The notes under the pieces were generated by a model. That model made no database searches, was not told where the DNA came from, and saw only the letters and a program-made list of their open reading frames with translations. A program made the position numbers and the translations under genes. Positions 20,664 to 57,047 of a DNA stretch of 64,000 bases are shown in pieces. Positions within the stretch are counted from its first letter, which is position 1. Each line of letters opens with the position of its first letter. Source of the stretch: Polyangium mundeleinium (GTDB lineage: Bacteria; Myxococcota_A; Polyangia; Polyangiales; Polyangiaceae); NCBI RefSeq assembly GCF_028369105.1, contig NZ_JAQNDO010000001.1, forward strand, positions 7,720,501 to 7,784,500, written 5' to 3'.

Positions 20664-20777
20664 AGGAACGTCGCGCCGGGGTTTCCACCCCGGACCCCGA
20701 CCAGGGGTTGTCCACCCCTGGACCCGGACCAGGCACGGCCTGGACCGAAGGTACATCGACCGCGATGCGGTCGATGT
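20664..20777 (+). repeat. Four-hairpin dispersed repeat, copy 1 (sense)
   Basis: It starts right after the TAA of the preceding gene. Hairpin A: CCGGGGT / ACCCCGG (20676-20693). B: CCAGGGGT / ACCCCTGG around TGTCC (20701-20721). C: CCAGGC-ACG-GCCTGG (20729-20743). D: ACATCGACCGC / GCGGTCGATGT with a 3-base loop (20753-20777). Compared with the other copies, A, B and D have different bases on both arms of the stem but still pair. No run of T follows D. It separates two convergent genes. Confidence 0.8.
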
Positions 20778-20779
20778 GA

Positions 20780-42036: not shown

Positions 42037-43236
42037 TCACGCGGCCCATCGGCGATCGACCATCGGAGCGACCTCCGCTGGCGCGTTCACCTTCGCGTTC
42101 CCCTCCATCGGCTCGAGCCGCGTGCCCTCCCCGATCCGCATCCGATTGCCCCGCCAATCCACCGTGCGCCGGACGCCCCCGACGACCCACGTCCAGGTCG
42201 CCAGCACATCCTTGAAAGGCACGAGGCAGGCACACCGCCACGACATCCGCGCGCCACGCATGCGTGACCAGAGCGCCGCGTCGAGGGCCATCTTCAGCGC
42301 CACGCCGAGCAGCGCTGCCCCTCCGAGCACGCCGCCGGCCACGACCGAAAGCAAGAGGAGCAGCGGGACGGGATTGAAGAGCGGCTCGATCAAGTACGAT
42401 CCGACGTGCACACGCCGCCGCATTTGCGTCCAGCGTACATGCCGACTGACGAACCGATCGAGGCGCCAGCGCTCGTTCACGGTGCGCACCGGCTCCGTCG
42501 ACAAGGCGACACGAAAGCCGGCCTCCTGAAACGCCTTCCCGAGCAGGTAATCCTCGGCCAGCACATCCCGCACCGAGGCGAAGCCGCCCACCGCGGCGAG
42601 ATCCCCGCGCCGCAGCAGCATCGATTTCCCGATCACGCACGCGTGCCCCAGGAAAACCTTCGCCGAGAGCGTCGAGCGCACGATGAACGAATTGAGATGC
42701 AAGTTCTCCAGCGCAGCCCCGAAGGTCCGTTCCCCCGCGCCCACGATGACACTCGTCACGAGCCCCACGCGTGGATCCGCGAGCTCGGCCGCCATCGCCC
42801 GCAGATACCCCGGCCCCACACGCACGTTCGAGTCCGAGATGAGGACATGTTCATGGCGCGCGCGGACCGCGAGCGCTTCGAGGATGCTGACCTTGGGGTT
42901 CAGGCCCGTCCGGCGCGGGCAATGGATGATCAAAAACGGCGCGCGCGGACAACGCGCCATCACCTCGCGCGCCACGACGAGCGCCGGGTCGTCCGCGTCT
43001 TCCGTGCCGAGGAGGACTTCGTAAGTCGGGTAGTCCTGGGACGCGAAGGAAAGCAGGTTTTCCCGTAACCCATCGTCCACGCCCTTGAGCGGCTTCAGGA
43101 TCGTGATGGGCGGCGTGGGACGCTCCTTCTCGGGAGCCCGACGCAGAATGCGCAGCGCGGCCCATTGCGAGGCCACGGTCATCACGATCGACGAGAGGGC
43201 TCCCCCCGCGAGGAGAGCCACCAGCGTGCTCTTCAT
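42037..43236 (-). CDS. Ceramide glucosyltransferase-like (GT21) membrane glycosyltransferase
   Basis: A 399-residue membrane-bound GT-A glycosyltransferase of family GT21, close to ceramide glucosyltransferase and HpnI. Motifs are ITILKPLKGVDDGLRENL, LLGTEDADDPAL, the metal-binding ISDSNVRVGPGYL, AEDYLLGKAF and the RHVRW motif of the (Q/R)xxRW type. One helix precedes the catalytic domain and two follow. It would transfer a sugar from a nucleotide sugar to a lipid; sphingolipids are known from Sorangiineae, so ceramide is a fair guess. ATG at 43236 has GAGGTG upstream. It is divergent from the phosphoesterase. The 182 bases after the upstream operon (41855-42036) hold its promoter region but no gene. 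Confidence 0.85.
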   Translation of the reverse strand: MKSTLVALLAGGALSSIVMTVASQWAALRILRRAPEKERPTPPITILKPLKGVDDGLRENLLSFASQDYPTYEVLLGTEDADDPALVVAREVMARCPRAPFLIIHCPRRTGLNPKVSILEALAVRARHEHVLISDSNVRVGPGYLRAMAAELADPRVGLVTSVIVGAGERTFGAALENLHLNSFIVRSTLSAKVFLGHACVIGKSMLLRRGDLAAVGGFASVRDVLAEDYLLGKAFQEAGFRVALSTEPVRTVNERWRLDRFVSRHVRWTQMRRRVHVGSYLIEPLFNPVPLLLLLSVVAGGVLGGAALLGVALKMALDAALWSRMRGARMSWRCACLVPFKDVLATWTWVVGGVRRTVDWRGNRMRIGEGTRLEPMEGNAKVNAPAEVAPMVDRRWAA

Positions 43237-43377
43237 CGTTTCACCTCGGGAGGCCACGCTAGCGGTCGTTCGTCACATTCTGGTGTCTACTCGTGTGAAG
43301 ATTGGCGACGGAGGTTTCGCGGAGGTTTTTCGCGGCCGTCGCAGGATCGTCAACTTGCCCGTGCATGCTCGGGCGCC

Positions 43378-44193
43378 ATGACGCGGATTGCGCAGGTGAC
43401 GGATCTACATTTGCTGGAAGATCGCCACGACAGCCGCAGCGGAATGGAGCGGTGGAGGCTTCGTTATTTGACGTTCGGTCGATCGCCGTGCGCGCGCCGC
43501 CGGCGTGAACGCGCGCTCGACGCGCTCGTACGCGCGCGCATGACGGACGCGGACCACGTCATCATCACCGGCGACCTGACGGAGGACGGCGTGTCCGCGC
43601 AGTTCGAGGCCCTGGCGGAGGTGCTCTCCGAGAGCAAGCTCTCGCCGGAGCGCGTGACGCTCGTCCCCGGCAATCACGATCTCTACGACGACGGACGGGC
43701 GTTCACGCGTGCCCTCGAAGGCCCCCTCCGCGCCTATGCAAGGACGAGCCGCCCCGGCGCCACGACCGAGCTCCGAGATGTGCTGATCGTCCCCATCTCG
43801 ACGGCCGTGCCCTTGCCCGTGACCCGATCGAGCGGCCTCATCGAGCAAGGCGCCGTCGAGCGGCTCGGCAAGCTCGCGGAGGATCCTCATTTCGCGTGGA
43901 AGGTGGTCCTCTCGGCGCAACATCACCCGCCGGGGAAACACGTGATCGCGGCGTGGCACTGGATCGACGGATTGCAAGCGCCCGAGGCCATGGACGCACT
44001 GCTCGCGCGCTGCGAGCGGCTCCACGTGGCGCATGGGCACGCGCATCGATCGGAGAATCGATCCATCCGGGCAGGCGCATCGCCGCGCGTGTTTGGTGCC
44101 GAAGCCGTGGTAGATGGAGAGACGACGGTGCGTCTGTACCGGGCGACGCACGGGCGGCTCGTGCCCGAGACCGACGTGGCGCTGGCAGCTTGA
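43378..44193 (+). CDS. Metallophosphoesterase
   Basis: A soluble calcineurin-like phosphoesterase of 271 residues. The five metal motifs are present: TDLHLLED near the start (Asp9, His11), ITGDLTEDG, PGNHDLYDD, SAQHH and VAHGHAHRS. The substrate could be cyclic nucleotides, nucleotide sugars or lipid-linked phosphates; the divergent GT21 gene makes lipid metabolism a possibility only. ATG at 43378 begins directly with the first strand MTRIAQVTDLH. The stop at 44193 is followed 15 bases later by a four-hairpin repeat. Confidence 0.9.
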   Translation: MTRIAQVTDLHLLEDRHDSRSGMERWRLRYLTFGRSPCARRRRERALDALVRARMTDADHVIITGDLTEDGVSAQFEALAEVLSESKLSPERVTLVPGNHDLYDDGRAFTRALEGPLRAYARTSRPGATTELRDVLIVPISTAVPLPVTRSSGLIEQGAVERLGKLAEDPHFAWKVVLSAQHHPPGKHVIAAWHWIDGLQAPEAMDALLARCERLHVAHGHAHRSENRSIRAGASPRVFGAEAVVDGETTVRLYRATHGRLVPETDVALAA

Positions 44194-44199
44194 TACGGG

Positions 44200-44340
44200 G
44201 CCGCCGCGCCGGGGCGCCGCCCCGGTCCCCGCGGGGGGCTGTCCGCCCCCTCGACCCCGGACCAGGCACGGCCTGGACCGAAGGTGGAAAAACTGCGCAA
44301 TGCGCAGTTCTTCCGAGCGGGCCCGTGGCAAGACCAAGGG
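44200..44340 (+). repeat. Four-hairpin dispersed repeat, copy 2 (sense)
   Basis: Hairpin A CCGGGGC / GCCCCGG (44209-44225), B GGGGGC / GCCCCC around TGTCC (44234-44250), C CCAGGC-ACG-GCCTGG (44262-44276), D GGAAAAACTGCGC / GCGCAGTTCTTCC (44286-44314, one mismatch). After D comes a tail, GGGCCCGTGGCAAGACCAAG, shared with copies 3 and 6. It begins within 16 bases of the metallophosphoesterase stop codon. It is the left arm of an inverted pair with copy 3. Confidence 0.82.
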
Positions 44341-44383
44341 AACAGTTCACGCCGTCGCCGTCGTGGTTGCAGGGTCAAGACCC

Positions 44384-44770
44384 GTCGCGCCCCTTCCAAC
44401 GCGACCTCCCCACGCGCCGACCTGGCGTCGCGCCCCTTCCAACGCGACCTCCCCACGCGCCGACCTGGCGTCGCGCCCCTTCCAACGCGACCTCCCCACG
44501 CGCCGACCTGGCGTCGCGCCCCTTCCAACGCGACCTCCCCACGCGCCGACCTGGCGTCGCGCCTCTTCCAACGCGACCTCCCCGCTCGCGGACTCCTCGT
44601 CGCGCCTCTTCCAACGCGATCTTCCCGCGCGCCGACCTGGCGTCGCGCCTCTTCCGCCGCGACCTCCCCGCTCGCGGACTCCTCGTCGCGCCTCTTCCAA
44701 CGCGATCTTCCCGCTCGCGGACCCCTCGTCGCTCCCTTTCCGAGGCGATCCCCCTGCTTGCCGACCTGTC
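44384..44770. repeat. 43-bp tandem array, nine units
   Basis: Nine units of exactly 43 bases. Each starts GTCGCG, has ten bases, then CGCGAC (or the wobble form CGCGAT), so each unit can make a 6-bp hairpin. Two unit types alternate in the second half: one with ACGCGCCGACCTGG and one with GCTCGCGGACTCCT. The array is most regular on the left and decays on the right. Because 43 is not a multiple of three it is open in several frames; those long frames are not genes. It lies between inverted repeat copies 2 and 3. No spacers like those of CRISPR. Confidence 0.85.
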
Positions 44771-44823
44771 TGCGTCCCCTCCGCGGGCGGCGTCTCCCTC
44801 CCCTGTCGAGAGCCTCCTCCCTG

Positions 44824-44955
44824 GTCTTGCCACCGGCTCGTGGGAAGAACTGCGCATCGCGCAGTTCTTCCCTCACCGGTCCAGGCCGTGCCTGGTCCGG
44901 GGTCGAGGGGGCGGACAGCCCCCCGCGGGGTCCGGGGCAGCGCCCCGGCGCGACG
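44824..44955 (-). repeat. Four-hairpin dispersed repeat, copy 3 (antisense orientation)
   Basis: In minus orientation: A at 44932-44948, B at 44907-44923, C at 44881-44895 and D at 44842-44872, where D is a perfect 14-bp stem with a 3-base loop (arms GGGAAGAACTGCGC and GCGCAGTTCTTCCC). The tail GGTCTTGCCAC (plus strand, 44824 on) matches that of copy 2. Hairpin A lies 21 bases after the stop of the sensor kinase gene that ends at 44970, again in sense with the gene. Confidence 0.82.
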
Positions 44956-44969
44956 GCTCCATGCGCAGC

Positions 44970-46340
44970 TCACCCCTGCCGAGGCATTTCCAGAACGAAC
45001 CGCGCCCCGCGCCCCTCCTTCGGCGCGAGATACACCCTTCCCCCGTGCCGCCGCGCGATCTCCCGCACGATCGAAAGCCCGAGCCCCGCCCCCTGCCCCT
45101 GCTTTGCTTTGGCTCCCCGGTAAAATGGCTCGAAGATGTGCTCCGCTTCCTCGGCGCGGATCCCCTCCCCCTCGTCCTCCACCGAGATCTGCCACGCCTC
45201 TCCCGCCGCCTCGATTCCCACCGTGATCGTCGTCCCTCGCGGCGCATGGGCCATTGCGTTCGACAGCAAATTGTCGACCGCCTGCCGTGCCGTCTGCGCC
45301 TCGAACGCGGCCGGCGCCTCCTCCGGCAGCGAGGACGCGATCGTCACCCCGCGCGCCTCGGCCTCCCCTTCACATGCCTCCGCCGCTTCCCGCACCACGG
45401 CCGAGAGATCCCCTGCCTTCGCCTCCCACGTCACCTTCCCGAGCGCTGCGAGATCGAGCAGCCGCGCGGCCAGGTTCGACAAGCGCGTCACCTCGCCCCG
45501 CGCCCCGGCGAGCGCCTCCCTCAGCTCCTCTGTGCTCCGCTCCTTGCGCAAGGCGAGGTCCATCTCCGTGCGCATCAATCCGAGCGGCGTGCGTAACTCG
45601 TGTGCCGCATTCGCGATCAGCCGCTCCTGCGCGTCGCGCGCGGCCCGCAGCCGCTCCATCGCCTCTGCCAGCGCGACGCGCAGATCCGCGATCTCGTCGC
45701 CCGTCGGATCCGGGGGCAGGCGCCATGCGAGCGCGCCGCCGCGCAGCTCCGGGAGCTGCGCCGTCATGTCGCCGATGCGCCGGCTCATCCGGCCTGCTTG
45801 CACCCCTTGCAAGAAGAACAGGAGCGCCGCCGCCGCGGCCACGAGCCCCAGCGTCGCTTGCCAGTAAAGCCGCATCGTCGCGTCGAGCTCCGCGAGCGAG
45901 CTCTCCAGCGTGAGCACGTACGGCTCGCCCCACGGCGCGCGCACCGCCACCACGAGCGAGCGCATCCATCGCCCGTCGGAGGCCTGGTGCGTGAAGAGAC
46001 GTGGCCCCTCCGAACCCACGTTCGCGGAAGGCCGATCGGGGATCCAGCCATGCTCGGGGAAATGCGCGACGAGCTTCCCCGTCCCGTCGTAGAGCCCCGC
46101 CGTCGGCACGAACGAGCGCACGTCGTCCGCGAGCGGCGATTTGCCGAGGTGCACGTGCGGCGCGCCCGTCGGACCGTCGAAGAGGCTCACGCTCTCCACC
46201 GCTGCCTGCGCGAGCAGCGCCCGATCCAGCGCGCCGAGCAAGCTCCCGCGGAACACCACGCCCGCCACGCCCACCGCGAGCACCAGCACGAACGACGGCA
46301 GCGCCGCACCGAAAAGAACGAGCCGCGCCCGGACCCTCAC
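44970..46340 (-). CDS. Heavy-metal sensor histidine kinase of the efflux operon
   Basis: A 456-residue sensor kinase: helix 1 (LVLFGAALPSFVLVLAVGVA), a periplasmic domain of about 130 residues, helix 2 (ATLGLVAAAAALLFFLQ), a HAMP-like linker, HisKA with NAAHELRTPLGLMRTE (phospho-accepting His near 249) and HATPase_c with NLLSNAMAHA, EDEGEGI and GAGLGLSIVREIARRHGG. It pairs with the response regulator whose stop overlaps its GTG start (GTGA). The periplasmic loop probably senses metal excess; no obvious Cys or His cluster is visible there. Last gene of the operon. Confidence 0.92.
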   Translation of the reverse strand: MRVRARLVLFGAALPSFVLVLAVGVAGVVFRGSLLGALDRALLAQAAVESVSLFDGPTGAPHVHLGKSPLADDVRSFVPTAGLYDGTGKLVAHFPEHGWIPDRPSANVGSEGPRLFTHQASDGRWMRSLVVAVRAPWGEPYVLTLESSLAELDATMRLYWQATLGLVAAAAALLFFLQGVQAGRMSRRIGDMTAQLPELRGGALAWRLPPDPTGDEIADLRVALAEAMERLRAARDAQERLIANAAHELRTPLGLMRTEMDLALRKERSTEELREALAGARGEVTRLSNLAARLLDLAALGKVTWEAKAGDLSAVVREAAEACEGEAEARGVTIASSLPEEAPAAFEAQTARQAVDNLLSNAMAHAPRGTTITVGIEAAGEAWQISVEDEGEGIRAEEAEHIFEPFYRGAKAKQGQGAGLGLSIVREIARRHGGRVYLAPKEGRGARFVLEMPRQG

Positions 46341-47029
46341 GCTTCGCCTCGCGGCGGCTTCGCCACGGCCAGCCGATACCCCACGCCTCGCACGGCCTGG
46401 ATCGTCACCGCATCCCCGCAAACGCTCCGGAGCTTGCTCCGCAAATACCCCACGTACACGTCGACCACGTTCGGCGCGCCGTCGAACCCTGTCCCCCACA
46501 CCGTGCCGAGCAGCTCCGTCCGCGTCAGCGCCTCTCCCACGTGGCCCGCGAGCTCCGCCAAGAGCGCATACTCCCGCGCCGTCAGGCTCTCCTCGGCGCC
46601 GTCCCGCCCGATCACCCGGCGCCGCGCGTCCAGCGTGATCGGCCCGAGCCGCGTCAGCGCCTCGTGCCCCGCTCCGCGCCGATGCAGCGCCTCCAGGCGC
46701 GCCACGAGCTCTTCGAAGTCGAAAGGTTTGACGAGGTAGTCGTCCGCGCCGGCCCGCAGACCCGTCACGCGCTCGCCCACTGTCCCGCGCGCTGTCAGCA
46801 AGAGGACCGGCGTCTTGAGCCCGCGCTCCCGCCATCGCCGGAGCAGGGAAACGCCGTCCATCCCGGGCAGCGACCAGTCGAGGAGGATGACGTCGTAGAC
46901 GACCCCGAGGCCTTGTTCGAGCGCCTCCGTGCCGCTCGCCGCGAGGTCCACCTGATGGCCCTCCTCGCGGAGGCCTCGTTCGAGCAGGCGGGCCATCTTG
47001 GCCTCGTCCTCCACCACGAAGAGCTTCAC
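46337..47029 (-). CDS. OmpR-family response regulator of the efflux operon
   Basis: A 230-residue two-domain response regulator. The receiver has the acidic pair (VVEDEA), phospho-acceptor Asp51 (VILLDWSLPG), Thr79 and Lys101 (LVKPFDF). The C-terminal winged helix ends VDVYVGYLRSKL ... IQAVRGVGYRLA, typical of OmpR/CusR. GTG at 47029 overlaps the stop of the RND pump gene (GTGA) and the stop overlaps the kinase start. It is the likely binder of the 11-bp direct repeats at 52512-52544, which would make the operon self-regulating (inference). Confidence 0.94.
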   Translation of the reverse strand: MKLFVVEDEAKMARLLERGLREEGHQVDLAASGTEALEQGLGVVYDVILLDWSLPGMDGVSLLRRWRERGLKTPVLLLTARGTVGERVTGLRAGADDYLVKPFDFEELVARLEALHRRGAGHEALTRLGPITLDARRRVIGRDGAEESLTAREYALLAELAGHVGEALTRTELLGTVWGTGFDGAPNVVDVYVGYLRSKLRSVCGDAVTIQAVRGVGYRLAVAKPPRGEA

Positions 47030-50000
47030 GCCGCCATCGTAGCGCCGGACGAGCCCTCCGGCGGGGAAGGTGCTGGCGCCGGCGTGCCGCGGCGGCCTCG
47101 GCCGATCCAGCCGTACAAGCTCGGCACGATCAGCAAGGTGAGCAACGTCGAGGTCACGAGCCCGCCCACGACCACGGTCGCGAGCGGCCGCTGCACCTCG
47201 GAGCCGGCGCCGCGCGCGAGCATCATCGGCACGAACCCGAGCGCCGCGACGAGCGCCGTCATGAGCACCGGCCGCGCCCGCGCCCGCGCTGCGCTCTCCG
47301 CTGCCGCCGCGGGATCCTGCCCTGCGGCCTCGTTCGCGAGCACGCGCGAGAGCAGCACCACGCCGTTCAGCACGGCCACGCCCGAGAGCGCGATGAACCC
47401 CACGGCCGCGGAGATCGACACCGGCATGCCGCGGATCGTGAGCGCCACCATCCCGCCCACGCACGCGAACGGCACGTTCGTGAAGATGACGAGCATCGGC
47501 TTCACCTTGCGAAACGCGGCGAAGAGCGCCGCGAGGATGAGCGCCACCGCGGCCGGCACCACGACGAGCAGCCGGCGCGAGGCCTCCTGGAACGTCTCGT
47601 ATTGCCCGCCCCAGACGAGCCTGTAGCCGCGCGGCGCGGCGACGGCCTTGTCCACACGCGCCCGCGCCCGCGCCACGAGATCCCCGAGATCTGCGCCGCG
47701 CACGTTGAAGCCCACCACGATGCGCCGCTCGCCATCCTTGCGGCTCACGAGGCCCGGCGTCGGCAACGTCTCGACCTTCGCCACACGCGCGAGCGGCACG
47801 AGCCCGCCCGACGCCGTCGGCAAGCTCAGGTTCGGCAGATCAAACGCGCCCGCGACGCCCCCGATCCGCAAGACCACCGGGATCCGGAGGGGCCCGTCGT
47901 ACGTCGCGCCGACCTCGATGCCGCTGCGCACCGCCTGCACCGCGTCGAGCACCTCGCCGACGCCGAGGCCCACGAGCGACGCATCGAGCGCCTTCGGCTC
48001 GACTTCGAGGAGCGACACGTCCGGCGGCGCCAGCACCTTCACGTCCGCCGCGCCCTTCTCGGCGGCGATCTCGGCCGCGATCTTCTCCGCGAGCTCTCGC
48101 AGCACCACGAGATCCGCGCCGTAGACGCTCACGGCCACGTCCGAGACCGCTCCGCCGAGCAGCTCGTTGAACCGCATCTGGATCGGCTGCGTGAACGAGG
48201 GATCCGCGCCCGGCGAGCCCGCGTCCACCGCGCGCCGGATCTCCTCGATCAGCGCCTCGCGCTCGAGCCCCGGCCGCCACTTGTCCCGCGGCGCGAGCGT
48301 GATGAACACGTCCGCTTGTTCGAGGCCCATGATGTCCGTCGCGACCGCGGGGCTGCCCACGCGCGAGACGACCTGCTGCACCTCGGGCACCCTCCGCACC
48401 GCGGCTTCGAGCTTGCCCGCCTCGACGATCGCCGTCTCCAGGCTGATGTCGGGGGCGCGTGTCGTCTGCACGACGAGATCCCCCTCGTCGAGCTGCGGCG
48501 CGAGCTCGCTGCCCGCGCGCGCGTAGAGCACGACGCCGGCCGCGAAGAGCACGAGCGCGCTCGCGGCCACGAGGACAGGCCGCTTGACCACGAACGAAAG
48601 CGTGGGCCCGTAGATCCGCTCCACCATCCGCACGAGCCATGGATCCCGCGCCGGCACGTCCTTCTGCCGGAGCACGAGGCTCATCGCGGCGGGCACGTAC
48701 GTGAGCGACAGGACGAGCGACGTGAAGAGCGCGAACACCACGGTGAGCGCCATCGGCCGGAACATCTTCCCGTCCACGCCCGTCATCGTGAGCACCGGCA
48801 GGTACACGATCAGGATGATCAGCACCGAGAAGAACACGGGGCTCGCGACCTCGGCGCTGACGCCGCTCACCCACGATGTGCGTTCGGGCCCTCCCGCGGG
48901 AGCATTCCCCTTCTGCGACGCGTGGAAGACGTGTTCGACCATCACGACCGCGCCGTCGACGACGAGGCCAAAATCGATGGCGCCGAGGCTCATCAGGTTG
49001 CCCGGGATCCCGAGCGCCACCATGCCCGAGAGCGCCCCCAGCATCGAGAGCGGGATCGCCGAGGCCACGAGCAGCCCCGCGCGCAGGCTCCCGAGCATCG
49101 CGAAGAGCACCACACCGACGAGCAGGCCGCCTTCGAGCAGGCTCTTGCCCACCGTGCGGAGCGTGCTGCCGACGAGGTGGCTCCGGTCGTACACGAGCCG
49201 GATCGAGACGTCCTCGGGGAGCGCCGCGCGCACCGCGGGCATCTGCGCGTGGAGCCGATCCATCACGTCGAGCGCGTTGTCGCCCCGGAGCATCTGCACC
49301 ATCAGGTAGATGACCTCGCCGCGGCCGTCGGCCGTCGCCGCGCCAATCCGCGGCAGCCCGCCCACGCGCAGCTCCGCCACGTCGGAGACACGCACCGCGC
49401 GCCCTTCCTGATCGAGCGGCGACACGATCGCGTGCCCCAGCTCGGAAGGATCCTTCGGCCGCGCGACGGCACGGAGAAGCGCCTGTCCACGGCCGAGCGG
49501 CAAGCTCGCCCCGGGCGCGCTGCCGGTCGATCGTTCGAGCGCCTCGCGTAGCGAGCCGAGCGTCATGTGCCGCTGCGCGAGCCGCGCCGGATCGGCCACG
49601 ACCTCGATCGTACGCCGCTCGCCGCCCCAGGGGTTCACCTCCACGACGCCGGGCACCGCGCGGAGCAGCGGCGCCACGCGTGTCGACGAGAGCTCGTAGA
49701 GCTCCGCGAGCGAGCGCGACGGCGAGCTCAACGTGAAGTGAAAGATCTCGCCGAGCCCGCCCGTCACGGGCCCCAGCTCGGGCGCGCTCACGCCCGGCGG
49801 CAGCGCGCCCGCGACCGCCCCGATGCGCTCCGAGACCATCTGCCGCGCGCGCCACGGATCCACGGCGTCGTCGAAGACGATCGTCACCGACGAGATCCCG
49901 TACCGCGACAAGCTGCGGTGCTCTTCGAGGCCCGGAAGCCCGCCGAGCGCGAGCTCGATCGGCCGCGTCACCTGCCGCTCGACCTCCTCGGGCGTGAGGC

Positions 50001-50163
50001 CGGGCGCGCTCGTCAGCACGAGGACCTGGTTGTTCGTGATGTCCGGCAGCGCGTCGAGCTCGAGCCGCCGCCCGAGGAAGGCCCCCACGACGGCGAGGAC
50101 GAGCGTCACCGCCACGACGAGGCCCCGATGCCGGATCGAGAGCTTGACCAGCGCGGGGATCAA
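47026..50163 (-). CDS. Heavy-metal efflux RND pump (CusA/CzcA family)
   Basis: The inner-membrane proton-driven pump of a tripartite metal exporter, 1045 residues, normal length. The N-terminus IPALVKLSIRHRGLVV is typical. The HME-RND signature DFGLVVDGAVVMVEH lies in helix 4 (near residues 393-407) and carries the proton-relay acids; the second half ends TSTLLTLLIVPSLYGWIGR. Met triads of the CusA copper type are not evident, so divalent metal (Zn, Co, Cd, Ni) is somewhat more likely than copper, but this is uncertain. The start is best at TTG 50163, overlapping the stop of the fusion protein gene (TTGA). The downstream junction with the regulator also overlaps. Confidence 0.95.
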   Translation of the reverse strand: MIPALVKLSIRHRGLVVAVTLVLAVVGAFLGRRLELDALPDITNNQVLVLTSAPGLTPEEVERQVTRPIELALGGLPGLEEHRSLSRYGISSVTIVFDDAVDPWRARQMVSERIGAVAGALPPGVSAPELGPVTGGLGEIFHFTLSSPSRSLAELYELSSTRVAPLLRAVPGVVEVNPWGGERRTIEVVADPARLAQRHMTLGSLREALERSTGSAPGASLPLGRGQALLRAVARPKDPSELGHAIVSPLDQEGRAVRVSDVAELRVGGLPRIGAATADGRGEVIYLMVQMLRGDNALDVMDRLHAQMPAVRAALPEDVSIRLVYDRSHLVGSTLRTVGKSLLEGGLLVGVVLFAMLGSLRAGLLVASAIPLSMLGALSGMVALGIPGNLMSLGAIDFGLVVDGAVVMVEHVFHASQKGNAPAGGPERTSWVSGVSAEVASPVFFSVLIILIVYLPVLTMTGVDGKMFRPMALTVVFALFTSLVLSLTYVPAAMSLVLRQKDVPARDPWLVRMVERIYGPTLSFVVKRPVLVAASALVLFAAGVVLYARAGSELAPQLDEGDLVVQTTRAPDISLETAIVEAGKLEAAVRRVPEVQQVVSRVGSPAVATDIMGLEQADVFITLAPRDKWRPGLEREALIEEIRRAVDAGSPGADPSFTQPIQMRFNELLGGAVSDVAVSVYGADLVVLRELAEKIAAEIAAEKGAADVKVLAPPDVSLLEVEPKALDASLVGLGVGEVLDAVQAVRSGIEVGATYDGPLRIPVVLRIGGVAGAFDLPNLSLPTASGGLVPLARVAKVETLPTPGLVSRKDGERRIVVGFNVRGADLGDLVARARARVDKAVAAPRGYRLVWGGQYETFQEASRRLLVVVPAAVALILAALFAAFRKVKPMLVIFTNVPFACVGGMVALTIRGMPVSISAAVGFIALSGVAVLNGVVLLSRVLANEAAGQDPAAAAESAARARARPVLMTALVAALGFVPMMLARGAGSEVQRPLATVVVGGLVTSTLLTLLIVPSLYGWIGRGRRGTPAPAPSPPEGSSGATMAA

Positions 50164-51239
50164 TCGACGTCTCCGCCGGGCGTGGGAAGCGCGCGCGACG
50201 CATCCGCGGCCACCTCGTCCCCAGGGCGCAAATCCCCCTCGACGAGCGCATCCGCCCCGGAGCTCGACAGCACCTTCACCGGCAGCGGCGCGCCGGTCTT
50301 TCGCGAGAGCACCACGGCCGCGCCGTCTTTCAGCGTCACCGCCGCCGCGGGGATGGCCACCGCCATGCCGCCCGGATCGGGCGAGACGCGTACCTTCCCC
50401 AGCGTTCCATGCGGCAAGGCGATCACCTCCGCGGGCTTGAACCACGCGGCCACCGTCCCATCCCGCCCGCTCGTGCTCGGCGCTTCGCTCAGGAGCGTGA
50501 GCGCCGTGGTGTGCCCGAGCGGCCCCACGAAGACGAAGCGCGCGCCCGGCGGCGGCCGCTGCGAGAACCGCGCCTCGATCCGCGCCACGCCCGCGCCCTC
50601 GATCTGCGCAATCGGCGCGCCCGTGGGCTCACGCGACGCGCCGAGCGCCGCGTCGAGCTCGGTCACCACACCCGCGACCGGGCTCCTGAGTGTCACGAGC
50701 CCGCCCGAGCTCACGAGCGCGGCCACGTTCTTCGGCCCCAGCCCTGCGATCTTCAGCGTCGCGAGCGCCATCTGCTGCGCGGCCGACGCGTCCGCGAGCG
50801 TGCCCTCGACCTCGGCGATGTCCGCGAGCTTCGCGAGCCCGTCCTTCCGGAGCTCTTCGAGCTGCGCCTTGCGCTTGCCATGCGCCCCGATCCGCGTGCC
50901 CGCCGCCGCGAACGCGCCCGCCGCGCGCGCGAGCTCCGGCATCACCACGTCCGCGATCGGCGCGCCCTCGTCCACACGCTCGCCGTGCTCCACATGCACC
51001 TTCGTGATCCGCGCCGAGAACGGCGGCACCACCGCGCCCTTCGCCCCCGCAGGCGGCACGAGCTCAGCCGGCGCTTCGAGGAGCGAGAGCCCGCCCGGCG
51101 CGCGCGCCGCGACCCACGGCGTCTCCGCGCTCTTCGGGCCCACGCCCACGTCCGCAGCCGGCTCGGGCGCCGCCTCGGGGCGCGCGCACGCGGCGACGAA
51201 AAGCGCCGCCACGAAAGCCCCCATCCCTCGCGCCTTCAT
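50160..51239 (-). CDS. Efflux periplasmic adaptor (membrane fusion protein), CusB/CzcB-like
   Basis: A 359-residue lipoprotein adaptor that links pump and outer-membrane channel. Lipobox FVAAC at Cys18. The barrel-sandwich halves are seen as FSARITKVHVEHGERVDEGAPI and VTLRSPVAGVVTELDAAL, separated by a short alpha-hairpin (RKAQLEELRKDGLAKLADI). A beta-barrel and membrane-proximal domain follow (TLGKVRVSPDPGGMAVAIPA). The ATG overlaps the stop of the outer-membrane factor gene (ATGA) and the stop overlaps the pump start, giving strict order and coupling. Confidence 0.92.
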   Translation of the reverse strand: MKARGMGAFVAALFVAACARPEAAPEPAADVGVGPKSAETPWVAARAPGGLSLLEAPAELVPPAGAKGAVVPPFSARITKVHVEHGERVDEGAPIADVVMPELARAAGAFAAAGTRIGAHGKRKAQLEELRKDGLAKLADIAEVEGTLADASAAQQMALATLKIAGLGPKNVAALVSSGGLVTLRSPVAGVVTELDAALGASREPTGAPIAQIEGAGVARIEARFSQRPPPGARFVFVGPLGHTTALTLLSEAPSTSGRDGTVAAWFKPAEVIALPHGTLGKVRVSPDPGGMAVAIPAAAVTLKDGAAVVLSRKTGAPLPVKVLSSSGADALVEGDLRPGDEVAADASRALPTPGGDVD

Positions 51240-52483
51240 CGCGTCTTCTCCTGCTTCTTCCCGTCATCCATCGCCGAGAGCCAGAGCCAAAGTTTCACGC
51301 GCGCCCACGCATTCGCCGCCCGCGCGCGCTCGAGCCGAGCCTGCGCAGCCGCGACGTTCCTGCGCGCCGTGAGGACCTCCAGCATCGTCCCCTCGCCCGC
51401 CTCGAAGAGCCGCACCCGCGCCGCGAGCCCCTCCGTGAGCGCCGGCAAGATCGCGCCAGCGAGCGTGTCCACGATGTCCTGCGTGTGCTCGACCTCGTGG
51501 ATCCCCATGGCCACATCGGCCGACGCATTCGCCGCCTCGCGCTTCGTCTCGCCTTCGAGCTGCGCCGCCCGCGCGGCCATCACGCTGCGCTCGCGCTCGC
51601 CGCGATCAAAGACCGGGAGCGTGAGCCCAACCGCGCCATACCCCACGAGCCCGCCAGGCGAATCCCGCTGGACGTACACGCCAACCGAGAGCGAAGTCCC
51701 GCGCGCAGCCCGCTCCTCGGCCTCCCGCGCGCGCTCGACGCGGGCCGCGATCGCCTTCTGCTGCACGGTCGGCAGCATCGCCGCGCGCCTCTGCGCCTCC
51801 CGCAGGCCCGCCCCGGAAGGCAACACGGGCGCCGGCAAATCCCCACGCGCGCCCAGCGGATCCACGCCCGCAGCAATCACCCGCGAGAGCCCGAGCCCAC
51901 GTTCGAACACCTCGCCCTCCGCCCCAATCACCCCAAGCCGCGCCTCCGCGTGGTAAGCACGCGCATCCGCCGCATCCGCCTTCGTCACCGCCGAGGCCTG
52001 CGCCGCCTTCTCCACGAGCCGCGCAAACTCCCCCGCAAGCGCCGCCTCCCGCGCTGCAACATCGAGCACACGCTCAGCCGCCCAAAGATCGATCCACGCC
52101 CGCGCCGCATCGAGCCTTTGCGTCAGCGCGAGCACGCGCGCGCCCGCCGAGAGCTCCTCCTCCTCGACCCGCGCCGCGTCCTTGCGAGCCGAAGCCAACC
52201 CCGCAAGGTTCCACGATTGCGTCACGCTCGCCTGAATCTCGAAGCCCTGGTTCGGCGTGGGCAACACGCGGAACCCCGGCTGCACATAGATCTGCGGGTT
52301 CTCCGTCATCCCCGAAATCCGCGCACCAAGCGCATGTTTCGTGGTCACAGCGCGCTCAGCGCCGCGCACATCAGGCGTCGCGACGGACAAGCCGATGGCC
52401 TCGTCAAACGAGAGTGTTTTCGCAGGCGTCGTGGCCGCGAGCGCGACATTCGCAGCGATCGGAAGCGCGAGCCAGAAGCTCAT
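51236..52483 (-). CDS. TolC/CzcC-type outer-membrane efflux factor
   Basis: The outer-membrane channel of the metal exporter, 415 residues. The signal peptide (FWLALPIAANVALAA) is followed by two OEP repeats, each with the start motif of TolC-like proteins (TLSFDEAIGLSVATPDVRGA) and long amphipathic helices (ARVEEEELSAGARVLALTQR; LEGETKREAANASADVAMG). The end has a basic tail. First gene of the operon; ATG at 52483 lies 29 bases from the nearest 11-bp direct repeat. Together with the adaptor and pump it completes a CzcCBA-like system. Confidence 0.92.
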   Translation of the reverse strand: MSFWLALPIAANVALAATTPAKTLSFDEAIGLSVATPDVRGAERAVTTKHALGARISGMTENPQIYVQPGFRVLPTPNQGFEIQASVTQSWNLAGLASARKDAARVEEEELSAGARVLALTQRLDAARAWIDLWAAERVLDVAAREAALAGEFARLVEKAAQASAVTKADAADARAYHAEARLGVIGAEGEVFERGLGLSRVIAAGVDPLGARGDLPAPVLPSGAGLREAQRRAAMLPTVQQKAIAARVERAREAEERAARGTSLSVGVYVQRDSPGGLVGYGAVGLTLPVFDRGERERSVMAARAAQLEGETKREAANASADVAMGIHEVEHTQDIVDTLAGAILPALTEGLAARVRLFEAGEGTMLEVLTARRNVAAAQARLERARAANAWARVKLWLWLSAMDDGKKQEKTR

Positions 52484-52511
52484 GCGCGGACCCTAGCGCC
52501 ACCCCCCACGA

Positions 52512-52544
52512 GAGATCCTGAGGGGATCCTGAGAGAATTCTCAG
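52512..52544 (-). promoter_or_regulatory. Three tandem 11-bp direct repeats upstream of the efflux operon
   Basis: On the plus strand, GAGATCCTGAG (52512-52522), GGGATCCTGAG (52523-52533) and AGAATTCTCAG (52534-52544) follow each other without gap. The first two agree at ten of eleven positions. A period of 11 bases puts the half-sites on one face of the helix, as for OmpR/PhoB-type winged-helix regulators. They lie 29-61 bases upstream of the start of the outer-membrane factor gene, where the promoter must be, and the operon itself encodes such a regulator. Confidence 0.65.
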
Positions 52545-52557
52545 AAAGCTGGCAGGC

Positions 52558-52668
52558 CGTCGCGCCGGGGCGCTGCCCCGGACCCCGCGGGGGCTGTCCG
52601 CCCCTCGACCCGGACCAGCGAGGCGCTGGACCCAGGGTTGAAAAACTGCGCTCCGCGCAGTTTTTCAA
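52558..52668 (+). repeat. Four-hairpin dispersed repeat, copy 4
   Basis: Hairpin A CCGGGGC / GCCCCGG (52565-52581), B GGGGC / GCCCC around TGTCC (52590-52604), C CCAGCG-AGG-CGCTGG (52615-52629) and D TTGAAAAACTGCGC / GCGCAGTTTTTCAA (52638-52668, perfect 14-bp stem). C and the outer part of D differ from copies 2, 3 and 6 on both arms, keeping the pairing. This is the only copy not placed after a stop codon; it is upstream of the efflux operon and forms an inverted pair with copy 5. Confidence 0.8.
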
Positions 52669-52759
52669 ACAGGCCGACGAAGAACCCGGGTTGCCAGCAG
52701 AAGCAGCAGCGCGGCTGTCTTCGGCGGCAGGGTCGTTGCCGGTCTTGACCGGGCCTGTT

Positions 52760-52863
52760 CGATGAGCTGCGCGGAGCGCAGTTCATCGAGCTTGGGTCCA
52801 GCCCCTGGCTGGTCCGGGTCCCGGGGCGGACAGCCCCGGGTGGGGCCTGGGGCAAAGCCCCAG
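52760..52863 (-). repeat. Four-hairpin dispersed repeat, copy 5 (antisense orientation)
   Basis: In minus orientation: A CTGGGGC / GCCCCAG (52847-52863), B CCCGGGGC / GCCCCGGG (52820-52840), C CCAGCC / GGCTGG (52798-52812), D stem at 52760-52788 with arms CGATGAGCTGCGC and GCGCAGTTCATCG (one mismatch). It begins nine bases after the stop of the oxidoreductase gene at 52873, in sense with it. The 91 bases between copies 4 and 5 (52669-52759) contain no gene. Confidence 0.8.
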
Positions 52864-52872
52864 CTCCGCGGC

Positions 52873-54408
52873 TCACTTCGGCGCGAGCTTTGCCATGAAC
52901 GACGCTGCGAGCCCTGACAGAAGGCATGGCGCCACGCCGCCGCCGAAGACCCCTGAGCCTGCGAGGTACAGGCCTGTCACGGGTGTGCGCGTGCGGAAGC
53001 CTTTGGGTCCCCATTGCGAGAGCGTCATTGCTGGGCCGAAGGGCGCGCCGGCGGTTGCGCGGGTTTGATCTGCCGCTGTGAGGGGCGTGCCGTAGGCCTG
53101 CACGACCACGTCGCCCACGAGCCCTGGGTACCGCGCGTCGAGCTCCTTCAGCATCCACTGCGCGATCTCGTCGCGATAGGCTGCGTAGGCGGGCCCTCGC
53201 TCGGCCTCGGGCAGCGATTGCCATTTTCGGAAGCGCGCATGTGGCACGTAGGTCAGCACCACGAGCGACGAGCTGCCCTCCGGTGCGAGCGCGCCGCTTG
53301 GGTCCTTGATCGACGTCGGCGAAAGGAACAGCATCGGCCGCGGTGGCAGTTTTCCTGTGAATCGCGCGGAAAAACCTTCTTCGACGTCGTACGACGGATA
53401 CAGCCAGACGTTTTGCGCGCCGAGCCCGTATGTGCGCAGGTCCCGACGCATGCCGAGCCATATCTGGAACGTCGCCATCGATGGCTCGATCACGGCTGCT
53501 TTGCGCCGGAGCGAGGTTGGCAGATCCGAAGCGGAGACGAGCCGGCCCAGCGTGATCGTGGGATCCACCGCGGAGACCACGATGTCCGCCTCGATCCGCT
53601 CGCCTCCTGCGAGCACGACGCCGGTCACGCGGCCGCGCTCGGTCTCGATACGCTCGACGAGGGCGCGCGTGCGGAATTGCGCTCCTTTTGCTTCGGCTGC
53701 GTGGACGAGCGCGTCGCGCAGGCCCCCGCCGCCGCCGCGCGGGAAGAACGCGCCGTCGCTGAAATGGGCCATGTAGAGCAGCGCTGCGAGCCCGACCACG
53801 CGCGAGGGTGGCAAGGCCCACGCGCCGGATTGGCCGGCGAGCACGGCGCGCAGGCGCTCGTCGGAGGTGCTTTGCTCGATGAGCTCGCGCAGCGGCCGCT
53901 GGCTCCATTGCAAGAGCGCTGGCACGCCCGTCAGCGCCACGAGATCCGTCAGGACGGGACGGCCGAGGATGCCCCGGGCGAGCGCGTCGTGCATCCGCGC
54001 CGCCCCGTCGAGCAAACCGAAGAAATGGCGGAGACCCTTCGTTTCCTCCGGAAACAGGGCGGTCAGGCGCTCGCGGTAAGCCGCGAGGGGCCGGCAAACC
54101 TGGACATCGAGGTCGGGAAATCGGTAAAGGTCGAATCCGTCGGGATCGAGCTCGCGGAAGAGCTCGCCTGCATCGACGCCGAGGGACTGGAAGAGCTCGT
54201 GCACGAGCTGGCCCGGACGGCAGGCGCCCACGTAGTGCAGACCCTGGTCGAAGACGAATCCGTCCTGCGAAAACGGCGCGAGGTAACCGCCGATCTCGGC
54301 GCCAGCGTCGAGGGCGAGCACGTCGAACCCGTCCTTGGCGAGGAAGGCGGCGGACGCGAGGCCGCCCGTACCAGTTCCGATCACGAGGGCGCGCCGCGTC
54401 GAGGCCAT
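52873..54408 (-). CDS. FAD-dependent oxidoreductase, phytoene desaturase/carotenoid isomerase-like
   Basis: A 511-residue flavoprotein of the CrtI/CrtISO-retinol saturase superfamily. The dinucleotide-binding motif VIGTGTGGLASAAFLAKDG is near the N-terminus, then FDQGLHYVG, FFPRGGGGGLRDALVHAAE in mid-protein and the C-terminal GLYLAGSGVFGGGVAPCLLS that closes the FAD site. The substrate may be a carotenoid, a retinoid or another polyene; no other carotenoid gene is present here. ATG at 54408 starts two residues before the Rossmann strand. It stands alone, divergent from the PAS-STAS gene, and ends nine bases before a four-hairpin repeat. Confidence 0.87.
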   Translation of the reverse strand: MASTRRALVIGTGTGGLASAAFLAKDGFDVLALDAGAEIGGYLAPFSQDGFVFDQGLHYVGACRPGQLVHELFQSLGVDAGELFRELDPDGFDLYRFPDLDVQVCRPLAAYRERLTALFPEETKGLRHFFGLLDGAARMHDALARGILGRPVLTDLVALTGVPALLQWSQRPLRELIEQSTSDERLRAVLAGQSGAWALPPSRVVGLAALLYMAHFSDGAFFPRGGGGGLRDALVHAAEAKGAQFRTRALVERIETERGRVTGVVLAGGERIEADIVVSAVDPTITLGRLVSASDLPTSLRRKAAVIEPSMATFQIWLGMRRDLRTYGLGAQNVWLYPSYDVEEGFSARFTGKLPPRPMLFLSPTSIKDPSGALAPEGSSSLVVLTYVPHARFRKWQSLPEAERGPAYAAYRDEIAQWMLKELDARYPGLVGDVVVQAYGTPLTAADQTRATAGAPFGPAMTLSQWGPKGFRTRTPVTGLYLAGSGVFGGGVAPCLLSGLAASFMAKLAPK

Positions 54409-54554
54409 GATGCTGCGCGGAAGGGTACACCCGGCCGCCGGTCGAGGCGAGGAAAACGAATCATGCGCACGTATCGAGTCCACGGACATGCCATGGTCTC
54501 CCAGTATGCGGACGTACCCCGCTCGCGCGCAGGCTTCTCGCCGCGCGAGGCTGC

Positions 54555-54584
54555 TTGACAGGAATTCTCGCGGCGGCCTAACAT
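54555..54584 (+). promoter_or_regulatory. Sigma-70-like promoter of the PAS-STAS gene
   Basis: A perfect -35 box TTGACA (54555-54560) and TAACAT (54579-54584) as -10 are 18 bases apart. Transcription would start near 54591, just before the G-rich leader. The match is better than for any other promoter I noticed in this window. Confidence 0.55.
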
Positions 54585-54593
54585 CCGGGATTT

Positions 54594-54628
54594 GGGGGGA
54601 TTCGGGGGAGACCGGGGGAGACCGGGGG
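54594..54628 (+). promoter_or_regulatory. G-quadruplex-type motif in the leader and ribosome site
   Basis: Four runs of five or six G (54594-54599, 54604-54608, 54614-54618, 54624-54628) are separated by 4-5 bases (ATTC or AGACC) and end three bases before the ATG at 54631. The last runs also serve as the only possible Shine-Dalgarno region. Such a motif in RNA can fold into a quadruplex and block ribosomes. Two of the spacers are identical, suggesting local duplication. Confidence 0.5.
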
Positions 54629-54630
54629 CG

Positions 54631-55518
54631 ATGGTGGAAGAGAAACGACACGAAGTCGCGGCCGAATCCCAGAAAAACGAACCGAGGCAGGACACCTACC
54701 GGCTCCTCTTCGAGCTGGCGGCCGACCTCCTGGGTATTGCCACGATGGAGGGCTATTTCGTGGAGCTCTCTCCCTCGTGGGAGGGCCGCCTCGGCTACAC
54801 GCGCGACGAGCTGCGCATGCATCCCTTCCTCTCGTTCGTGCATCCGGACGACCAAGCGCCGACGCTTGGCGAGGTGAGCAGGATGGCCCAGGGGGCCGTC
54901 GTACTGACCTTCAAGAATCGATATCGATGCAAGGACGGCGCGTACCGGTGGATCGAGTGGACGAGCGTGCCGAAGGACGGGCTCATTTATTTCGTGGCGC
55001 GCGACATCACCGAGCAGCAGCAGCTCGAAGAGGAGCTGCGCGCTTCGCGACGCGAGGTCGAGGCGAGGTATCGGGAGCTCGAGCAGGAGATGGCCGAGCG
55101 CCGCCAGGCCGAGGCCGCGCTGTATGCGCAAAATGAGGCGGTCCGGGCGCTCTCGACGCCGATCCTGCAAGTCGCCGAGGGGGTGCTCCTCCTGCCGGTC
55201 ATCGGCCAGATCGACGCCGGGCGCGCGGGCATGATGATGAGCAAGCTCCTCGACGCCATCGTGCACGCGCAGGCGCGCGTGACCATCCTGGATCTGACGG
55301 GGGTGGCCGAGATCGACACGAATACGGCGTCCCACGTCTTCTCGCTCGTCCACGCGGCGAGGCTGCTCGGGAGCGATTGCCTCGTGTCCGGCATCCGGCC
55401 TGCGATCGCGTCGACCATGGTCGACCTCGGGATCGACACGACCAACCTGCGCACGTTCGGGACCCTCGCCGCGGCGCTGTCCCACGCGCTCGGACTACGA
55501 GCGCATCGCCAGAAGTAA
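54631..55518 (+). CDS. PAS-STAS protein (RsbR-like stressosome component)
   Basis: A soluble 295-residue signalling protein. A PAS domain (about 22-135; RLLFELAADLLGIATMEG, then SFVHPDDQAPT and YFVARDITEQQQLEEEL) is joined by a coiled coil (140-185) to a C-terminal STAS domain (about 190-290; STPILQVAEGVLLLPVIGQI and ARVTILDLTGVAEIDTNTA). This is the layout of RsbR-type proteins; the STAS Thr in DTNTA is the place where RsbT-like kinases phosphorylate. No rsbS, rsbT or phosphatase gene is next to it. The start ATG 54631 is preferred over one 39 bases earlier inside the G-runs. Confidence 0.87.
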   Translation: MVEEKRHEVAAESQKNEPRQDTYRLLFELAADLLGIATMEGYFVELSPSWEGRLGYTRDELRMHPFLSFVHPDDQAPTLGEVSRMAQGAVVLTFKNRYRCKDGAYRWIEWTSVPKDGLIYFVARDITEQQQLEEELRASRREVEARYRELEQEMAERRQAEAALYAQNEAVRALSTPILQVAEGVLLLPVIGQIDAGRAGMMMSKLLDAIVHAQARVTILDLTGVAEIDTNTASHVFSLVHAARLLGSDCLVSGIRPAIASTMVDLGIDTTNLRTFGTLAAALSHALGLRAHRQK

Positions 55519-55571
55519 CGACTTCGCGATCTTCCGAGCATCAAGCCGGTCGATGCTGCTAGGCTCGCGCC

Positions 55572-56546
55572 ATGCGTGCCATTCGATTTCATGCCCTCGG
55601 CGGCCCCGACGTCCTCCGCGTCGAGGACGCACCCGAGCCCACGCCGAAGCCGGGCCAGGTCCTCCTCGCCGTCCGCGCCGTGGGCCTCAATTACGCCGAT
55701 ACGATGTTCACGAAGGGGCAATACTTCATCCGCCCCACATTCCCGGCAATCCCCGGCATGGAAGCCGCCGGCGAGGTGCTCGCCGTCGGCGAAGGCGTGA
55801 CGGACCTCCGCGTCGGCGACCGGGTGATGGCGCTCGGCGACGGAGCCTATGCCGAGCGAATGGTCGCGCCAGCGTACAGCGTCTATCCCATCCCGAAGGG
55901 GTTGTCCTTCGAGCAGGCCGCGGCATTGCCGGTGCAAGGCCTGACGGCGCACCACGTGCTCACGCTCTCGGGCAGGCTCGCGCCCGGGGAGAAGGTGCTC
56001 GTGCACGCGGCGGCGGGCGGCGTAGGCACGCTCGCGGTGCAAATCGCGCGGCGGCTCGGGGCCTCGTTCGTCGCAGGCACGGTAGGCTCGCCGGCGAAGG
56101 CGGATCTCGTGCGATCGCTCGGCGCGGATCTCGTGGTGAACTACCGGGAAGACGATTTCGCCACGCAGATTCGCTCGGCCGTGAAGGAAGGGGTGGACGT
56201 GGTGCTCGAAATGCTGGGCGGCACCGACGTGTACAAGCGCAGCCTCGCTTGCCTCGCGCCGATGGGCCGGATGGTCGTGTTCGGCGCCGCGACCGCGGAC
56301 GTGCGCGGCACCGTGGAGCCGATCGGGCTCATGCACAAGAACCTGTCCATCACCGGCTATTACATGACGCCGCTGATCAAGCGCCGCGAGCTCTGCGCTC
56401 CGCCCCTCGCCGAGCTCGCCGCCGCAGCCGCGGAGGGCGCGCTGCGCGTGATCGTGGGCAAGACGTATCCGCTCGCAGACGCGGCAGAGGCGCACCGGGA
56501 CCTCGCCGGCCGCGCCAGCACCGGGAAGCTCGTGCTCGTGGTTTGA
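55572..56546 (+). CDS. NADPH:quinone reductase, zinc-free MDR family
   Basis: A 324-residue medium-chain reductase of the quinone oxidoreductase type. The N-terminal GroES-like domain (MRAIRFHALGGPDVLRVED; GLNYADTMFTKGQYF; IPGMEAAGEVLAVG) lacks the zinc-binding Cys residues of alcohol dehydrogenases. The Rossmann motif is VLVHAAAGGVGTLAVQIARR, with NYRED at the position that sets NADPH preference. It would reduce quinones or enones. It follows the PAS-STAS gene by 53 bases on the same strand and could be in the same transcript. Confidence 0.92.
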   Translation: MRAIRFHALGGPDVLRVEDAPEPTPKPGQVLLAVRAVGLNYADTMFTKGQYFIRPTFPAIPGMEAAGEVLAVGEGVTDLRVGDRVMALGDGAYAERMVAPAYSVYPIPKGLSFEQAAALPVQGLTAHHVLTLSGRLAPGEKVLVHAAAGGVGTLAVQIARRLGASFVAGTVGSPAKADLVRSLGADLVVNYREDDFATQIRSAVKEGVDVVLEMLGGTDVYKRSLACLAPMGRMVVFGAATADVRGTVEPIGLMHKNLSITGYYMTPLIKRRELCAPPLAELAAAAAEGALRVIVGKTYPLADAAEAHRDLAGRASTGKLVLVV

Positions 56547-56593
56547 CGGGTCGGACGTGCGGGGGAGCGCCGCCTGCTCGACACCCACCTCCA

Positions 56594-56731
56594 TGGTCTT
56601 GCCACGGGCCCGTGGGAAGAACTGCGCACCGCGCAGTTCTTCCAACCTCGGTCCAGGCCGTGCCTGGTTCGGGTCGAGGGGCGAACAGCCCCCGCGGGGT
56701 CCGGGGCAGCGCCCCGGCGCCACGGCCCCCT
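56594..56731 (-). repeat. Four-hairpin dispersed repeat, copy 6 (antisense orientation)
   Basis: In minus orientation: A at 56701-56717, B at 56678-56692 (loop one base different, GAACA on plus), C at 56653-56667, D at 56615-56643 (perfect 13-bp stem GGAAGAACTGCGC / GCGCAGTTCTTCC). The tail ATGGTCTTGCCAC (plus strand, 56594 on) matches copies 2 and 3. It starts 27 bases after the stop of the small gene at 56745 and separates two convergent genes. Confidence 0.82.
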
Positions 56732-56744
56732 GTGGAATCCCCTC

Positions 56745-56990
56745 TCAGCGCGGCGCGGCGCTCCCTGCGGGTGCTCCTGCGGAGGGCGCGCCCGAGGCCG
56801 CGGCGCTCGCGGAGGCGGCGGCGGCGTTCATCTTCGCGCGGACGGAGAGCCGCATCCCCACGATGGTGCCGGCGATCGCGGTCGTCGTGACGACGATGAA
56901 CAGGACCAGGATCTTTCCCGAGTTCCCGCCGGCCGGCCTCGACGCGGGCGTGGACGGCGAGGTGCGGGGCGAGGGCGAGGCGCTTTCCAT
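56745..56990 (-). CDS. Small single-pass membrane protein
   Basis: An 81-residue protein with a Ser/Pro/Ala-rich N-terminus (about 24 residues), one hydrophobic helix ILVLFIVVTTTAIAGTIVGM and an Ala/Ser/Gly/Pro-rich tail. No family is recognised. It follows the photolyase gene on the same strand with a 57-base gap and may be co-transcribed with it. Composition is typical of small myxobacterial membrane proteins; the presence of a repeat copy directly after its stop, as at other genes, supports it being real. Confidence 0.55.
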   Translation of the reverse strand: MESASPSPRTSPSTPASRPAGGNSGKILVLFIVVTTTAIAGTIVGMRLSVRAKMNAAAASASAAASGAPSAGAPAGSAAPR

Positions 56991-57047
56991 GCGGGGCCTT
57001 GTATATCGTCCGATCCGGGCCCTGGCAACGCTCGCGGGCCTCTTGGT

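Follow-up and report, generated by a model that had tools for sequence, protein, structure and literature searches.

A dispersed four-hairpin repeat of Polyangium mundeleinium looks like an oversized relative of mobile palindromic repeats

A block of four adjacent hairpins, A-B-C-D, is dispersed in the genome of Polyangium mundeleinium and is one arm of an inverted (head-to-head) doublet of ~300 or ~330 bp. The family is genus-wide and present in high copy number, its units are present at a place in one species and absent from it in another, and they lie close to stop codons. These features suggest that the block probably belongs, as one arm, to a dispersed palindromic DNA element that is non-autonomous and of the REPIN/BIME kind, with the doublet as the replicating unit. 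Its likely relatives are the known, smaller mobile palindromic repeats; it does not look like a new RNA gene, and on the best reading its four-hairpin form is new to the REPIN/BIME kind.

The window is the whole stretch of DNA that was analyzed, 64,000 nt long, and corresponds to positions 7,720,501-7,784,500 of a 13.24-Mb contig. The original prediction placed six A-B-C-D copies in it, and all six were found where it had put them, with the hairpin order and the stem variants that it had quoted. A covariance model, whose alignment itself includes the six window copies, recovers each of them at full length and 0-1 bases from the predicted ends, at 20676-20778 (+), 44209-44315 (+), 44842-44948 (-), 52565-52668 (+), 52759-52863 (-) and 56614-56717 (-). 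The features of the window are:

20676-20777, + strand: single arm (copy 1), 12 bases past the stop of the gene ending at 20663
44200-44957, no strand: doublet unit 1, made of a + arm, a spacer and a - arm, with terminal GCCGCCGCG ... CGCGACGGC
44209-44314, + strand: arm (copy 2), hairpins A-B-C-D, coordinates checked with the covariance model
44209-44225, + strand: hairpin A of copy 2, CCGGGGC/GCCCCGG
44233-44250, + strand: hairpin B of copy 2, whose loop at 44242-44244 (TCC) can pair with 44259-44261 (GGA)
44262-44276, + strand: hairpin C of copy 2, CCAGGC/GCCTGG, an IS target in other copies
44286-44314, + strand: hairpin D of copy 2, a long palindrome with one mismatch here
44315-44841, no strand: spacer of unit 1, with inner inverted repeats at 44318-44339 and 44819-44840
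44383-44748, no strand: 43-bp tandem array of 8.5 copies, which enlarges the spacer of unit 1
44842-44948, - strand: arm (copy 3), coordinates checked with the covariance model
52556-52872, no strand: doublet unit 2, flanked by two - strand genes
52565-52668, + strand: arm (copy 4), with a D hairpin of TTGAAAAACTGCGC type
52760-52863, - strand: arm (copy 5), with a D hairpin of CGATGA type
56615-56717, - strand: single arm (copy 6), with the GTTC/GAAC variant of the B loop and linker

The block had been taken for the element itself. It is indeed dispersed and keeps its pairing, but it is half of the real unit: copies 2 and 3 pair up as an inverted doublet around a semi-conserved spacer, and so do copies 4 and 5, a relationship that had been missed. 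Also missed was that the conserved block extends ~9 bases outside hairpin A, as a GGCGYCGCG-like sequence, and then fades; the outer boundary of unit 1 was set by this extent. The arms of unit 1 are 118 nt long and 92% complementary. Copy 5 and the stop codon of the gene ending at 52873 are 9 bases apart. The P. fumosum interval that matches copy 1 has a doublet and apparently lacks the gene ending at 20663 (by eye), and copy 6 is without a counterpart in the corresponding interval of that species.

A whole-locus alignment of overlapping loci gave 38 arm pairs and 10 unpaired arms. The 126 arms found in 1.82 Mb of this genome form 48 doublets and 30 single arms (78 units). Two length classes, 298-307 and 327-334 bp, account for 45 of the 48 doublets, and the other three measure 283, 740 and 970 bp; the 740-bp doublet is the one at 44209-44948 of the window, whose spacer holds the 43-bp tandem array. 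One strand of a whole unit (52556-52872 was used) is predicted to fold into one long end-to-end hairpin, and a lone arm into four local hairpins. Mean arm-to-arm identity is 0.828 for paired and 0.743 for single arms, and nearest-neighbour identity is 0.981 and 0.943, respectively (p 2e-6; 96 and 30 arms in both comparisons); by the argument made for REPINs (PMC3116915), the greater likeness of paired arms points to the doublet as the replicating unit. D types are alike within none of the 48 pairs here (4 with an untyped arm) and within one of 64 pairs from other Polyangium (5 with an untyped arm), with about one third expected. The C hairpins are alike in 9 of the 48 pairs, so the unlikeness within doublets is a matter of D.

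A core pattern, with at most one mismatch, occurs at 171 sites in the genome and at none in a reversed control, and the family is thus far beyond chance. Since the 1.82 Mb holding the 126 arms contain 84 of the 171 core sites, ~257 arms (about 260) are estimated genome-wide, on the assumption of the same proportion of arms to core sites elsewhere. The best 150 arms of a covariance search of this genome were taken, and the weakest of these still scores 108 bits. The original prediction had suggested such a search in relatives and a comparison with Rfam. Under stricter filters, the model finds the family in all six Polyangium genomes, with at least 67 arms in each, and in none of 53 other genomes of the family and order. 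An exact 45-base core, searched in one genome per species in a collection that may leave out records of the window's own genome, gave 52 stretches, all in Polyangium records. The covariance model, with the stricter filters, did not confirm a weak 39-base plain-DNA match outside the genus (genome G034), and carriage on plasmids or phages was set aside when one unit gave no match in 72,556 plasmid and 50,697 phage records. No Rfam 15 family reaches its gathering score within the window; one unit gave three chance-level matches (E 1-2.4, with a limit of E up to 5), far under threshold.

An arm could instead be a structured RNA, consisting of hairpin A, a pseudoknot at B, and hairpins C and D; it would terminate or protect the mRNA of the preceding gene and be selected as a 3'-end element; the doublet would then be a two-way terminator, spread by recombination between gaps. 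We consider this unlikely, although the placement of the units favours it. With genes called by a home-made codon model, which makes the context counts approximate, 36 of the 78 units are found between convergent genes, 37 between tandem and 5 between divergent genes, and none inside a called gene; units are held by 33 of 226 convergent, 34 of 682 tandem and 5 of 227 divergent gaps. In a mixed-species set that overlaps this one the counts are 55, 49 and 6 for the 110 of 142 units that have a context, the 32 at locus edges being left out. The median distance from stop codon to arm for mixed-species doublets is 25 nt in convergent (n=88) as well as tandem gaps (n=37), compared with 167 nt on the start side (n=37). 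Unit-free convergent gaps have a median of only 19 bp, so nearness to both stops is expected there as an effect of size, and it is the tandem gaps that provide the test. Among the doublets in tandem gaps of this genome, 17 of 22 are closer to the stop and 16 of 22 lie within 41 nt of it; the median residual gap is 475 nt.

Other observations on the gene ends tell against a 3'-end element. Most gene ends have no unit, and the presence and absence of units change between species, as described below. The 70 nt after a stop have a mean folding energy of -37.7 with a unit and of about -27 in unit-free convergent gaps, as such an element would predict, but against shuffles of equal composition the folding is only slightly better (mean z -1.10 with a unit, -0.85 in unit-free convergent gaps). 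The GC hairpin plus T-run of an intrinsic terminator is absent from the five arms at 43000-58000 of the window. The nine T-tailed sites in that stretch (6.1 expected) all fall outside the five arms.

The units are also unevenly placed on the chromosome. Of the 150 best-scoring arms, 135 are in the half opposite dnaA, and none is within 2.1 Mb of dnaA; this would be the terminus half, on the assumption that the origin is near dnaA. All 150 were seen to fall within ~2.6-9.5 Mb of contig C1, centred opposite dnaA. A few core sites occur outside this range; one exact core is at 13,215,142, ~1.6 Mb from dnaA.

The claim that pairing is maintained through changes on both arms of the stems was borne out against shuffles. 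Across 2,479 stem cells, taken from 73 distinct arms of this genome, the paired share is 97.3%, compared with 88.7% in shuffles; two-sided changes number 198, compared with 61.5; and slid versions of the structure reach at most 46.6% pairing. Of 142 distinct arms from other Polyangium loci, which were read by pattern and not from a fitted alignment, 137 have a D hairpin with a perfect stem of 13 bp or more and a 3-nt loop, and 26 different best D stems occur among the 142, short failures included. The B loop and the linker before C had been described as fixed. They are complementary and co-vary as UCC/GGA or UUC/GAA: among 236 distinct arms of all species (226 parsed, 10 unparsed) there are 207 UCC/GGA, 18 UUC/GAA and one UCC/CGA, with no mixed forms, and 18 of 18 variants change on both sides. 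This covariation argues for a 3'-end element. The pairing, which rests on one varying pair, would close a possible compact (H-type) pseudoknot; alternatively, it would form a second hairpin competing with B.

Under selection on one RNA strand, a C-to-U change leaves a tolerated G-U pair, and an A-C mismatch is not tolerated. No excess of G-U was found: there are 7 G-U and 19 A-C among 2,479 stem cells (73 arms, this genome) and 3 and 8 among 4,566 (135 arms, other species), or 10 and 27 among 7,045 combined, counts that are small and in which a few degenerate arms among the 73 raise A-C. Both strands thus seem held to Watson-Crick pairing; to judge from the sequences, the pairing looks strand-symmetric, like that of a DNA palindrome, which speaks against the 3'-end element. 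The original prediction had read paired changes as the classic sign of selection on structure, and with no G-U excess such changes cannot safely be taken to show selection on RNA.

The number of independent double changes is also smaller than the number of sequences, since subtypes are inherited or exchanged as blocks. P. fumosum and this genome share one place at which the C hairpin differs along with the bases that follow it; at another place, species carry the unit in opposite orientations or as a different subtype. Template switching can yield double changes in one step (PMC8794818). Switching that inverts the loop was considered as the main process and judged unlikely, since D loops mostly hold their orientation (GAT 86 and ATC 3, TCC 51 and GGA 4, but GAA 4 and TTC 4).

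Filled and empty places were compared between this genome and P. fumosum, whose flanks are mostly 91-96% alike. Where the window has unit 1 (44194-44969), P. fumosum has just 9 bases between the two stop codons. Nine P. fumosum places were mapped here: four are occupied, one of them by a single arm, and five are unoccupied, three with short gaps and two with 1.2 and 2.8 kb of other sequence. At the eight filled/empty places read by eye, whose flanks have diverged, no target duplication of the units was seen. A Y1 transposase (RAYT/IS200 domain, PF01797) gave no match in this genome, and its control gave matches in 5 of 14. The domain is present in three of five relatives, one or two each (four matches in all), and no arm lies on the loci concerned, of ~3.3 kb.

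The empty sites, together with the long terminal inverted repeats (as in unit 1), the fixed unit lengths and the high copy number, are also what would be expected of a classic MITE, a deletion derivative of a DDE or HUH transposon with the arms as its terminal inverted repeats. Two gene-enclosing arm pairs are among those listed in a 1.6-Mb stretch, and one of them surrounds a transposase gene, which would suit this origin. That pair (5449333-5451178) was rejected as an autonomous carrier: the transposase belongs to a separate 1,504-bp IS that has its own ends and is inserted in hairpin C with a 9-bp duplication. The gene in the second pair has no Pfam match. With the lack of visible target duplications at the eight places, these findings make a MITE origin improbable. 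A trans-acting small RNA or riboswitch-like family, for which the covariation and the possible H-type pseudoknot might speak, is most improbable, given very many copies behind different genes, the absence of an Rfam match, the strand-symmetric pairing and no promoter pattern of the sigma-70 type beyond chance (one such site in 15 kb, 0.7 expected, off the arms).

If the units are REPIN/BIME-like palindromes, the replicating unit would be the doublet, two four-hairpin arms head to head with D subtypes that nearly always differ. Copying and spread might pass through a single-stranded state with folded hairpins, and insertions would persist chiefly behind stop codons, where promoters and genes are spared. 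The hairpins may then cap the 3' ends of flanking transcripts and separate convergent transcripts. The paired changes would come from a DNA-level process plus selection for foldability and not from RNA selection alone; repair of palindromes, template switching without loop inversion and exchange of whole hairpins between copies are candidates. With D hairpins that differ, the doublet would not form a longer perfect palindrome of the sort that can stall replication, an argument already made for REP dimers (PMC3733652). Several points weigh against the REPIN/BIME-like reading. No mover was found, in that this genome has no Y1 transposase; no target duplication was seen by eye at the eight places; the C hairpins of some doublets do not differ; the G-U and A-C counts are small; the covariation of B loop and linker exceeds what a plain palindrome needs; and the 3'-end effect, a possible one, rests on position. 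In a bolder and only tentative version, the units are giant palindromes orphaned of a transposase that occupy the slot behind stops in the terminus half, with stems and pseudoknot kept by a strand-symmetric DNA process. Were this true, DNA mechanics alone would produce what covariation tests call RNA structure.

The original prediction knew of no described family with such a layout. No Rfam match was found in the window, but the layout is close to the inverted doublets of BIMEs and REPINs (PMC2817692, PMC3116915). As in REPINs and BIME-1, inverted palindromes form intergenic, high-copy doublets around a spacer and single units are more diverged (PMC3116915, PMC2817692), and the units are IS targets (PMC1525189). 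The differences are in size and tip: the arms here are ~105 bp with four hairpins, and REPs are 20-40 bp (PMC3733652). The GTAG kind of REP has a RAYT. GTAG is absent from the 20 commonest tips of the 236 arms, and this genome, with no Y1 transposase, lacks a cognate RAYT. The RIME of rhizobia is an intergenic mosaic element with large palindromes; here the likeness is one of layout. CGTC-tagged REPs are likewise without a dedicated transposase, lie mainly between unidirectional or convergent genes and, in most families, favour unlike partners (PMC3733652). Their stems are 8-9 bp, with loops of 4-5 nt and CCA-like tails (PMC3733652), compared with four hairpins per arm, D stems of at least 13 bp and 3-nt loops here, and CGTC is at the tip in only a minority of the 236 arms. 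Correia/NEMIS, ERIC, the Yersinia palindromic sequence, RUP and RPE (PMC2229807) and Bcr1 (PMC2267715) are likewise small, ~100-170 bp; several of these MITE-like repeats are stem-loops, and NEMIS, ERIC and the Yersinia sequence have been tied to mRNA stability (PMC2229807). They are set apart by description, not by sequence: an ordered row of four hairpins per arm is not described for them in the passages considered (PMC2229807, PMC2267715).

No description of the family was found in the literature searched, which does not prove its absence from print, and Polyangium is a genus for which that literature describes no such repeats. The family would extend the REPIN/BIME kind to large and complex repeats, and no trace was found of the transposase that moves the classic form. 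It also serves as a warning that covariation passing shuffle and slide controls can come from a DNA palindrome, and the count of G-U against A-C is a cheap test usable in screens for structured RNA. With at least 67 arms in each of six genomes, spread, loss and 3'-end effects are open to comparison and bench tests.

Several minor observations concern sequences within or near the units. The 1,504-bp IS is Tn5/IS4-like (Pfam DDE_Tnp_1 and Dimer_Tnp_Tn5, one copy scanned) and has four full copies in this genome, at 5449725, 6280201, 8042336 and 5332757 (L231-L234). In three of the four, a border lies within the C hairpin of an arm, and two of those three show a clean 9-bp duplication at that point; the fourth copy is outside arms; REPs are known as IS targets (PMC1525189). 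At 7681482 and 5445670 of this genome a CCCCTC...GAGGGG-type palindrome is found where P. fumosum has a unit, and such palindromes are possibly a separate short repeat family. That other palindromes take the same slot at empty sites was striking by eye at some places but was dropped against controls, with a stem score of at least 8 at 3 of 8 empty sites, in 15% of 150 post-stop windows and in 19% of 103 mid-gene windows. The translations between the two arms of locus L033 are, by eye, similarly repetitive to the 43-bp array of the window. A tandem repeat of period 28 runs through hairpins A and B of copy 1 and their linkers, so the arm may have been built up by duplicating a module of one hairpin plus linker. 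At locus L136 of a relative (G002), around 13318 and 17234, hairpins of GCATCGACTGCGC type recur in short repeated runs that also contain pieces of B and C, and these runs look as if hairpins undergo duplication.
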